The notes under the pieces are model-generated. The model made no database searches. It was not told the DNA's origin and worked only from the letters and a program-made list of their open reading frames with translations. Shown here piece by piece: positions 9,987 through 13,084 of a stretch of DNA of 64,000 bases. Every line of letters starts with the position of its first letter. The stretch's first letter is position 1. The position numbers were made by a program, and so were the translations under genes. The DNA is from Pseudomonadota bacterium (GTDB lineage Bacteria > Pseudomonadota > Alphaproteobacteria > Micavibrionales > CSBR16-224), in the NCBI GenBank assembly GCA_013285465.1, contig CP053449.1:1946735-2010734 (forward strand), in the 5' to 3' direction.

Positions 9987-10016
9987 TTGACATAACCGCC
10001 ATATATTTGTTATGTT
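9987..10016 (+). promoter_or_regulatory. Promoter of the four-paralogue operon
   Basis: TTGACA at 9987-9992 and TATGTT at 10011-10016 are separated by 18 bases. This is the only convincing promoter seen ahead of the four tandem genes. The short gaps between those genes suggest one transcript. Confidence 0.55.
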
Positions 10017-10052: not shown

Positions 10053-10784
10053 ATGTCGGAAGATACCAAACCGAATATCAAATATAAAATCGGCCAGACT
10101 TTTGGTACGCCGCTGGCGTGGCTGCTTTGCTCCGCTGCGGCGGCAGGGCTGAATTTTGCCGTTATTCCCAATGTGATGGACAGTGATATCGCCGCACCTG
10201 ACCGGACCGGAACGGCAATGGAGCAAAGCGTGCTGGAACAGCACCAAAACGCCTTTGATGCCTTAAAACAGATGAAGGCCGAGATTGAGCTGAACGAAGC
10301 CAAAGCCGCTGCCAGCGGCAGTAGCGCCGCCGTAGATGAATTAAAAACAGCTTTTGGCGACAAAGCCTTAAACAGCTATATGGATTTATATCTTTCCGGC
10401 GCGTCCCAAACAGAGGGCGCTGCCATCAGCGAGGAAGCTTTTGAAACGCTGCGCGCCGCATTTGCAAAAGAAATCGTTAGCCCGTCCACCCTTGGCTTTA
10501 GCGAGAATATCGCCGCAGGCATGCTGGATGAAACCCTTGCCGAGACGAGGCTAAATCAAGGTACGGAGCTGGATAAATTCCAAACCGTCAAGGCGCTGGA
10601 CGGCAAGCTGACAGAGTTGCACGATCAGCAATCCGCACCTTTGGCTGCCGCCGGGCTAGCAAGCCTTGGAACCTTACTGCTGTTTTTTGTTCTTTGCGGA
10701 CCGGCAATGGCGGCACGCTGGCGTTATTCGGAGCCGGAGCGCGTGCCGGTCAAAAAACCGCAAAAGAAATACGGCCAGCATTAA
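10053..10784 (+). CDS. Tandem paralogue 1: two-helix membrane protein of unknown function
   Basis: This is the first of four neighbouring genes encoding related proteins of about 240 residues; I recognise no described family. One hydrophobic segment lies at residues ~21-41 and a second at ~197-220, with ~155 mostly helical, acidic residues between them. After the second segment comes a short basic tail ending EPERVPVKKPQKKYGQH. If the N-terminus is inside, the middle part is periplasmic. Blocks shared with the paralogues are TKPNIK..FGT near the N-terminus, GTAMEQS..HQNAFDALKQMK, YMDLYLSGAS, AAGMLDETLAET and LDKFQTVKALD. ATG 10053 is chosen because it aligns with the N-termini of the paralogues; a TTG at 10026 is also in frame. 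The next gene starts within 13 bases. Confidence 0.8.
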   Translation: MSEDTKPNIKYKIGQTFGTPLAWLLCSAAAAGLNFAVIPNVMDSDIAAPDRTGTAMEQSVLEQHQNAFDALKQMKAEIELNEAKAAASGSSAAVDELKTAFGDKALNSYMDLYLSGASQTEGAAISEEAFETLRAAFAKEIVSPSTLGFSENIAAGMLDETLAETRLNQGTELDKFQTVKALDGKLTELHDQQSAPLAAAGLASLGTLLLFFVLCGPAMAARWRYSEPERVPVKKPQKKYGQH

Positions 10785-10796
10785 CGGGGAATGAGA

Positions 10797-11540
10797 ATGA
10801 GCAAGAAAGACACAAAGCCCAATATCAAACGCGTTATTGCCGATACATTCGGCACAGGACCGGGCTTGATCATTTCCACCGCGATTGCCGCTGCCGTGTC
10901 TTTCGGCACAATTCCCGGCATGCTTGATACGAAAACCACCGCCCCCGATAATATCGGCACGGCAATGGAAGAAAGCATTACAGCCCGGCATCAGGCTAAT
11001 TTTGCCGCATTGCAGGAGATGAAATCACAGATTGATTTGCTGGAAGCCGAGACAGCCTTCACAGACGGCAGTCAGGAATTAACCGATCTGAAAACAGCTT
11101 TTGGCAAACAGACCGTTTCCACCTATATGGATCTGTATCTTGAAGGTGCCAGTAATGAAGGTGCAGCCTTAAGCGAACAGAATTTCGAGAAATTGCGGAC
11201 GGAATTCGCCGAAACAATCGCCAATCCTGCGGATTTCGGTTTTCAGGAAAATATCACGGCAAGCATGCTGGATGAAACGCTGGCAACAACTGATCTAAAC
11301 ATGCAGGACGGCACCGACCGTTTTGAAACCGCAAAACAGCTTGACCAGCAACTGGCCACGGCACTGGAAGAAGAAACCGCAAAAAAAGACAATGCCTTTA
11401 CCGCACCGCTGGTGGCAAGCGTCGCCTCTTTCCTGCTGCTGTTCATGCTGACCAGCTTTGTCGATGAAAAATGGGGCTATGAGCCGCGCCGCGTACCGCG
11501 CCGCAAACCGAAAAAAACCGGCCCATACGGCGGTCATTAA
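10797..11540 (+). CDS. Tandem paralogue 2: two-helix membrane protein of unknown function
   Basis: The 247 residues have the same plan as paralogue 1: DTKPNIKRVIADTFGT, a hydrophobic segment (~19-40), a helical central domain, a second hydrophobic segment (~203-222) and the tail EPRRVPRRKPKKTGPYGGH. Conserved internal blocks are GTAMEESITARHQANFAALQ, TYMDLYLEGASNEGAALSE, ITASMLDETLATTDL and DRFETAKQLDQQL. ATG 10797 has GGGGA six bases upstream; ATG 10791 is also in frame. Nineteen bases separate it from paralogue 3. No catalytic motif, cysteine pair or lipobox is visible, so a structural or scaffolding role in the envelope is only a guess. Confidence 0.8.
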   Translation: MSKKDTKPNIKRVIADTFGTGPGLIISTAIAAAVSFGTIPGMLDTKTTAPDNIGTAMEESITARHQANFAALQEMKSQIDLLEAETAFTDGSQELTDLKTAFGKQTVSTYMDLYLEGASNEGAALSEQNFEKLRTEFAETIANPADFGFQENITASMLDETLATTDLNMQDGTDRFETAKQLDQQLATALEEETAKKDNAFTAPLVASVASFLLLFMLTSFVDEKWGYEPRRVPRRKPKKTGPYGGH

Positions 11541-11559
11541 TTCAAGGGAGTAGCAGCAG

Positions 11560-12282
11560 ATGTCCAATGATAACACCCGTCCCAGCGTCAAACACGCACT
11601 TGGCAAAACCATCGGCACATGGCCGGCATGGTGGACATTAACCATTGCCGCAGGCGCAACGATTTTCACCACCGTTCCCGATGCCATCAACGGTGAGGCC
11701 AATCCGCTGGATTATCAGGGGGTGGAACAGCAACAGGAGCTGGTCGCACAGCATGAAGCCGACTTCGCCGCCCTGCAAGAGATGAAAGGCCAGATCGAAC
11801 TGCTGGAAGCACAGGCCGGACTGGGCGGAGAAAACGAAAAACTGACCGCGCTGAAAACAACATTCAGCGAAAAGGCCGTCAATGACTATGTTGATCTTTA
11901 CATGGACGGTGCGACAAAGGACGGCCCCGCCTTAAGCGAAGAAAATTTCAACCGCCTGCAACAAGCTTTCACGGAAAATGTGGCTGACCCGTCGGCCTTC
12001 GGCTTTCATGCCGCAATTGATGCCGGACTTCTGAACGAAACCATGGCCGAAACGGAACTGAAAACAGGCAGCGATGTCGACCGCTTCCAGACAGCCAAAG
12101 CCATGGACGAGAAAATGGCTGATGCGGTCAAAGACCCTGCAGACGGGTATTTCGCCTCCGGTATTGGCACTCTCCTGTCCGCCTTTCTGCTTTATATTAT
12201 ATGCGCGAGCATTTCGGAATGGCAGAAAGCCCCGTCACGCGTGCCGCGCCGCAAATCAAAACCTGCCTATGGCAAGCATTAA
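11560..12282 (+). CDS. Tandem paralogue 3: two-helix membrane protein of unknown function
   Basis: This 240-residue member keeps the layout and tail (APSRVPRRKSKPAYGKH) but is more divergent after the first helix: VEQQQELVAQHEADFAALQ replaces the GTAME start of the central domain. Conserved blocks are MKGQIELLEAQAG, DYVDLYMDGATKDGPALSEENF, DPSAFGFHAAIDAGLLNETMAETEL and DVDRFQTAKAMDEKM. Hydrophobic segments lie near residues 25-45 and 199-217. A good AAGGGAG precedes ATG 11560. It is part of one transcription unit with the other three. Confidence 0.8.
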   Translation: MSNDNTRPSVKHALGKTIGTWPAWWTLTIAAGATIFTTVPDAINGEANPLDYQGVEQQQELVAQHEADFAALQEMKGQIELLEAQAGLGGENEKLTALKTTFSEKAVNDYVDLYMDGATKDGPALSEENFNRLQQAFTENVADPSAFGFHAAIDAGLLNETMAETELKTGSDVDRFQTAKAMDEKMADAVKDPADGYFASGIGTLLSAFLLYIICASISEWQKAPSRVPRRKSKPAYGKH

Positions 12283-12297
12283 AAAAGGCATCAAGAC

Positions 12298-13029
12298 ATG
12301 ACACAAGACATGAAAACAAATCCAAAATATGTTGCGCATAGTCTGGCTATGCCGGTCTCCGCCATGATCGGCCTGGCCTTTGCCATCCCTGCCGGGATGA
12401 TGATTTCTGACAAAATCGGAGACGAGGTCGTGCTGCCTGACCAGACGGGTAGTGCCATGGAGGTCAGCATTATGGCCGAACATCAGGCGGATTTTGCCAA
12501 GCTGGAACAGATGAAAGGCGAAATCGAACTGCTGGAATCGCAGACTGTTTTAACCAATGGCAGTGCCGAACTGACAGAAATGAAAAGCGATTTTAATCGC
12601 CTAGCCGTGAGTGCCTATGGCGATTTATATCTGGATGGCAGCACGCAGGAAAACGGTGCGGGACTTAGCGAAACCCATTTTCAGGAACTGCATAACGCCT
12701 TTGCCGAAAAAATTATCAATCCGAAGACGATCGGCTTTGTAGATAATATTGATGCTGGCATGTTGGATGAAACGCTGGCTCAGACCGATCTAAAAACCGG
12801 CAGTGATGTTGAACGTTTCCAGACAGTCAAAGCTCTCACTCAAGCACTTTCCGAGCATCAAGCCGCCACAGCAGATAATAATGATAAGGCCGGCTTTACT
12901 AGCTTCATGGGCGGCGTTCTCACATTTATCCTTTTCCTCGTCGGTGGTGCCACCGTGAACGAAAAATACAAATGGGAGCCGCGCCGCGTTCCCAGTAACC
13001 GCCCCAAAACGCCTTACGGCAAACATTAA
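12298..13029 (+). CDS. Tandem paralogue 4: two-helix membrane protein of unknown function
   Basis: This is the last of the four paralogues, 243 residues. Segments TGSAMEVSIMAEHQADFAKL, MKGEIELLESQTVL, AYGDLYLDGSTQENGAGLSE, NIDAGMLDETLAQTDL and DVERFQTVKALTQAL match the others closely. It ends EPRRVPSNRPKTPYGKH. The extreme C-terminal pattern shared by all four is P-x-RVP-x3-[PS]-x(2-4)-YG-x-H (with slight variation). Such a constant tail on a variable central domain suggests a sorting or partner-binding signal on the cytoplasmic side. The start at ATG 12298 lies 15 bases after paralogue 3. A GCCAGC/GCTGGC hairpin follows downstream, before tyrS. Confidence 0.8.
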   Translation: MTQDMKTNPKYVAHSLAMPVSAMIGLAFAIPAGMMISDKIGDEVVLPDQTGSAMEVSIMAEHQADFAKLEQMKGEIELLESQTVLTNGSAELTEMKSDFNRLAVSAYGDLYLDGSTQENGAGLSETHFQELHNAFAEKIINPKTIGFVDNIDAGMLDETLAQTDLKTGSDVERFQTVKALTQALSEHQAATADNNDKAGFTSFMGGVLTFILFLVGGATVNEKYKWEPRRVPSNRPKTPYGKH

Positions 13030-13051
13030 TAAAATCCGCATCGCAGCTATT

Positions 13052-13084
13052 GCCAGCACCGCCGCGCTGGCGTTATAGTTTTAT
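13052..13084 (+). terminator. Hairpin between the paralogue operon and tyrS
   Basis: GCCAGC (13052-13057) and GCTGGC (13066-13071) form a six-pair stem with an 8-base loop, followed by GTTATAGTTTT. It is a plausible weak intrinsic terminator for the four-gene operon. Confidence 0.4.

Follow-up and report, generated by a model that had tools for sequence, protein, structure and literature searches.

In a family of small membrane proteins, four of which are encoded in tandem in the analysed DNA stretch of 64,000 nucleotides (the window), the last amino acid follows the genome, not the gene. Every member recovered in the window's genus ends in His, whereas nearly all ends are aromatic in one related genome and all recovered ends are Asn in another. 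The proteins are best explained as small hairpin proteins of the inner membrane whose family is undescribed and restricted to one lineage, and 35 genes of the window's own genome belong to it.

The gene cluster between anmK and tyrS

The region 10053–13029 holds four consecutive intact ORFs on the + strand, encoding proteins of 243, 247, 240 and 243 amino acids and separated by spacers of 12, 19 and 15 bases. ORF coordinates and alignment agree here with the first-pass annotation, which had reported four tandem paralogues of these sizes and spacings, and the two-helix layout proposed for them was recovered as two hydrophobic segments (TM1 and TM2) in each protein. All four genes were assigned by ORF reading and alignment, and member 2 was also modelled with AlphaFold. 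Member 1 (243 aa, 10053..10784) has TM1 at 10110-10166, an ISE motif at 10425-10433, TM2 at 10641-10697 and the tail RVPVKKPQKKYGQH at 10740-10781. Member 2 (247 aa, 10797..11540) carries TM1 at 10866-10922, an LSE motif at 11169-11177, TM2 at 11394-11450 and the tail RVPRRKPKKTGPYGGH at 11490-11537. The corresponding parts of member 3 (240 aa, 11560..12282) are TM1 at 11632-11688, LSE at 11932-11940, TM2 at 12151-12207 and the tail RVPRRKSKPAYGKH at 12238-12279, and those of member 4 (243 aa, 12298..13029) are TM1 at 12349-12405, LSE at 12664-12672, TM2 at 12901-12957 and the tail RVPSNRPKTPYGKH at 12985-13026.

In the alignment of the four, members 2–4 were 48, 38 and 39% identical to member 1, which shared 84% identity with its orthologue in genome G001 of the same genus. 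The constant C-terminal pattern RVP...YG-x-H described earlier holds as far as RVP, YG and the final His are concerned, all of them among the invariant columns of the four proteins; the constant stretch is, however, 14–16 and not about 17 residues long, and only R-V-P, Y-G and H are invariant within it.

The cluster is inserted, as had been noted, between anmK (- strand) and tyrS (+ strand), both named by ORF reading, and the same flanks bound a cluster in the same-genus genome G002 (loci L098 and L097). Phylogeny with homologues from related genomes recovered all four window subtypes at this site in G002, in a different order. Of the single TTGACA promoter claimed for all four genes, a possible site was found at 9987..10016 on the + strand (TTGACA - 18 - TATGTT, with TG before the second hexamer), a weak consensus match that is only suggestive, with 5 promoter-like sites against 2.7 expected in shuffles. 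Similarly, a possible terminator follows the fourth gene at 13051..13072 (+ strand), again a weak consensus match, with 12 terminator-like sites found and 5.5 expected in shuffles.

Family size, distribution and conservation

The four genes do not form a unit of their own. Iterative profile searches of the 2.67 Mb own genome (G000), seeded from the four window proteins, gave 9, then 31, then 38 raw matches, which after ORF reading corresponded to 35 genes at 21 scattered loci. The 31 further members thus lie at 20 other loci, many of them as single genes, and the median pairwise identity among the 35 is 26%. To rule out circularity over the tail, a further profile was built from 28 members after truncation of their C-terminal 25 residues. 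It matched exactly 35 places in the genome at E ≤ 10, the weakest at 1.6e-27 and with no 36th, and recovered the same 35 genes as the full-length searches. Six members stand in tandem in another large cluster (L162:3552-8158, + strand), which adjoins aspS and has clear orthologues in G001.

A hetero-oligomeric envelope complex had been suggested for the retained tandem copies. Envelope proteins they probably are, but one complex of just the four window products, with the tails marking its subunits, is only one possibility and an improbable one: tandem order, short spacers and the keeping of all four subtypes in G002 would suit it, whereas the members at the 20 other loci obey the same terminal rule and the gene order in G002 differs. 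Such a complex may be a sub-case of the tail-mediated docking considered below.

Within the order, members were recovered from all seven genomes searched of the window's taxonomic family (f1), 9–51 in each: 35 in G000, 30 (24 + 6) in G001, 18 in G002, 51 in G003, 12 in G004, 9 in G005 and 12 in G006, where the counts outside the window's genome come from drafts and are lower bounds. Part of a related family of the same order (f3) has members in 1–4 copies, and these low-copy homologues may represent the ancestral state preceding the expansion. The f3 genes (L130-L139, L147, L148) have no fixed last residue, and several stand beside ubiA or a HIT-type gene. The broadest profile found no members in other families of the order, and samples of the class (385 genomes) and of the phylum (398 genomes) yielded no more than borderline matches of partial length, none convincing; those of the phylum sample at E of about 1e-3 were rejected as relatives, being short and looking like chance. 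Viral contigs, phages and plasmids yielded no relatives upon searching, which gives no indication of a mobile passenger. Gene neighbourhoods in the own genome and in f3 consist mostly of housekeeping genes, with no functional theme.

The family is under purifying selection. All 22 orthologue pairs of G000 and G001 have intact frames, with dN/dS of 0.04–0.20 (median 0.12), and the only window gene with a recovered G001 pair has a value of 0.14. The earlier view of the copies as retained is therefore upheld, as no frameshifts were present, and degenerating duplicates are ruled out by the intact frames together with the dN/dS values.

Protein architecture and predicted topology

Among the 35 own-genome members, the median lengths are 246 residues for the protein, 26 for the N-tail and 24 for the C-tail, gene starts in the family being uncertain by a few codons. 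The segment between the two hydrophobic stretches is ca. 155–158 residues long (median 158) and acidic, and the median net charge is +2 for the N-tail, -18 for the middle segment and +5 for the C-tail. The C-tail is basic and rich in Pro and Lys, with a positive charge in 35 of 35 members. Two hydrophobic segments around an acidic domain, in which the Glu of [LI]SE is invariant, and a basic C-tail are what the members have in common, and both the acidity of the middle domain and the charge pattern were found in all members measured. Since the positive-inside rule was applied to this pattern of hydrophobicity and charge, an N-in/C-in topology is predicted, with the acidic helical domain in the periplasm and both tails in the cytoplasm.

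Full invariance among the 35 proteins is limited to three columns: the initial Met, the [LI]SE Glu and the His at the very end. The Glu is also invariant in an alignment of 38 sequences spanning f1 and f3. The own-genome members share a further, almost invariant motif, L[DR]E.RA. Two window proteins were modelled with AlphaFold (mean pLDDT 64 and 72), and the models place a helical bundle between the membrane helices. Fold searches with these two models returned generic helical bundles only, by which the fold is neither identified nor excluded.

Last residue in relation to genome

The element of the tail fixed in every one of the 35 members is the last residue, a family-wide rule. It is His in 35/35 members recovered from G000, 30/30 from G001 and 18/18 from G002, together 83/83 in the window's genus, and the His end is kept in 22/22 orthologue pairs between G000 and G001. 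In G003 the last residue is Tyr, Trp or Phe (50/51), in G004 Asn (12/12), and in G006 His in nine, Cys in two and Asn in one of 12 members. G005 has no single last residue, its nine members ending in Leu (four), Asn (two), Ala, Ser and Val (one each). One last residue per genome is accordingly the case in the window's genus, in G003 (as an aromatic) and in G004, mostly in G006, and neither in G005 nor in f3. The ends were compared within the stretches of DNA retrieved for the analysis. Among the 126 ORFs of 200 aa or more in the same DNA of the own genome that do not belong to the family, 3 end in His, a rough figure as the ORFs were picked mechanically.

Two of the three exceptions in G006 (L247, L249) end in RFKHGN and RFKHGC, that is, in the usual FKH end plus two residues. 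The G005 tails (L129, L146, L188, L197) share a longer motif, roughly KKL[SKN]PxxK..N..[RK][SL]L, and because this motif is shared without a single last residue, the tag may be read differently in G005. Outside the family, a probably secreted protein with Sel1-like repeats (L158:290-865, - strand) ends in KKRRYNH like the family tails, which may be chance or may indicate an extra client of the same putative reader; the G001 contig examined did not contain an orthologue of this protein.

Next to the last residue, positions -2 to -12 are diverse in the own genome (entropy 2.5–3.4 bits). At the DNA level, both His codons and both TAA and TGA stops are used at the family gene ends, and the aromatic ends of G003 are written with several codons. 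This mixture of codons and stops rules out that a conserved DNA element marks the ends of the genes, and neither such an element nor gene conversion explains the rule. Conversion keeping the 3′ ends of paralogues alike within each genome would fit a tail character common to these paralogues, but it is very improbable also in that only the last residue is fixed among diverse neighbours and that the paralogues are so dissimilar. In the loci L207-L246 of G003, a genome of ca. 35% GC, none of 74 ORFs of at least 150 aa stops with TGA (41 TAA, 33 TAG); as prfB is present, avoidance of TGA seems likelier than its reassignment.

A tree of 137 members, computed without their C-terminal 20 residues, requires 18 switches between His and aromatic ends, of which at least 10 are forced by starred (well-supported) branches; as the tree came from a quick search and has many open forks, 10 is the safer number. 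The repeated switches on this tail-free tree imply that many subfamilies predate the split of the genomes and that their ends changed in parallel. This bears on a role of the last residue within the protein itself, as a metal ligand or packing contact and without a reader. Histidine often serves as a metal ligand, and it ends all 83 members recovered in three genomes, but its replacement by Tyr, Trp or Phe in G003 and by Asn in G004 ran in parallel across many subfamilies, and the adjoining positions are diverse, so that an intrinsic role of this kind seems unlikely to a high degree. For His as a metal ligand in particular, the use of aromatic residues or Asn in other genomes argues against it.

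Putative function of the C-terminal tail

The favoured proposal, to which we give about an even chance, is that the tip of the tail acts as an address or docking tag for a single cytoplasmic partner encoded in the genome; both the existence of a tail reader and docking as the purpose of the tail are inferred. In each protein the N-tail would be short and cytoplasmic, the segment between TM1 and TM2 would form a variable, acidic, helical head in the periplasm, and TM2 would be followed by a basic cytoplasmic tail, through which dozens of different heads could plug into one shared platform. The putative reader might be a scaffold, a receptor or a sorting factor in the cytoplasm, and the whole might act as a single hub to which many sensors, adaptors or anchors connect, as is suggested by the combination of many different heads with one tail rule. 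Should the preference of the partner change in a lineage, the tails would change along, and the parallel changes of ends across subfamilies can be read as coevolution with a putative trans-acting reader. The mixed ends of G005, the exceptions in 3/12 members of G006 and the neighbourhoods devoid of a theme count against tail docking. More tentatively, and with somewhat less than an even chance, the last residue would be a genome-specific address code for a sorting or docking machine that is restricted to the lineage and serves ca. 1–3% of the genes (an estimate from member counts and genome sizes), reader and tags changing together from one closely related genome to the next.

The main rival to docking is a signal for processing or stability, in which the last residue would be read by a protease, by an enzyme that modifies C-termini or by a factor for the quality control of membrane proteins, with no permanent docking. 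The lock on a single residue and its genome-wide switching suit any factor that reads C-termini, but the whole basic Pro/Lys tail is kept besides the last residue, more than a minimal signal at the end would call for, and we regard such a signal as rather unlikely.

A one-residue C-terminal rule over dozens of dissimilar membrane proteins, switched in parallel, amounts to a natural experiment in the coevolution of tags and readers. Finding the putative reader of the docking tag would reveal how one hub lets a bacterium handle periplasmic heads in very large numbers. It would also assign a function to a gene family that takes up a notable part of these small genomes.

Comparison with known families and systems

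The statement in the first-pass annotation that no known family matches was confirmed by searches against Pfam, NCBIfam, PHROGs and PADLOC, in which no family exceeded its curated cut-off or was significant across several members, the matches being scattered over single members. The four window proteins had no Pfam or NCBIfam match at cut-off and no convincing PADLOC match. One of 29 members matched TarH with 18.6 bits, under the cut-off of 25.2, and weak matches to protein A (best E 0.006) were set aside as a generic three-helix likeness. No description of the family was found in a literature search of partial coverage.

Tripartite C-terminal sorting signals (LPXTG, PEP-CTERM and similar) combine a TM helix close to the C-terminus with a basic tail behind it, and occur on many proteins per genome. 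The family resembles them in these respects, but differs in its fixed very last residue, in a second TM near the N-terminus and in having no significant NCBIfam match. No conserved cleavage motif precedes TM2, as not one of the 16 best-conserved columns of the 35 members lies in the stretch from the L.E.RA motif to the tail. Beta-barrel proteins of the outer membrane carry a terminal aromatic residue as a C-terminal signal, which is read by one machine. The preference for one kind of last residue is similar, whereas the family consists of helical proteins that have a basic tail besides their two hydrophobic segments and that end in His in three genomes and in Asn in a further one.

Chemoreceptors with a C-terminal pentapeptide tether of the NWETF type (PMC7698151) likewise are many membrane proteins with the order TM1, periplasmic helical domain, TM2 and one short C-terminal peptide, which a common cytoplasmic partner can recognise; for the family, such a partner is suggested by analogy only. 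The proteins themselves are excluded as chemoreceptors (MCP) by their architecture, since no HAMP or signalling domain follows TM2. Instead of HAMP and a signalling hairpin they have ca. 24 residues there, with no MCP/HAMP match and no significant Pfam match, and their tag is one fixed last residue on a basic tail, which varies between related genomes. By this likeness, the chemoreceptor pentapeptide is the nearest analogue of the family tail.
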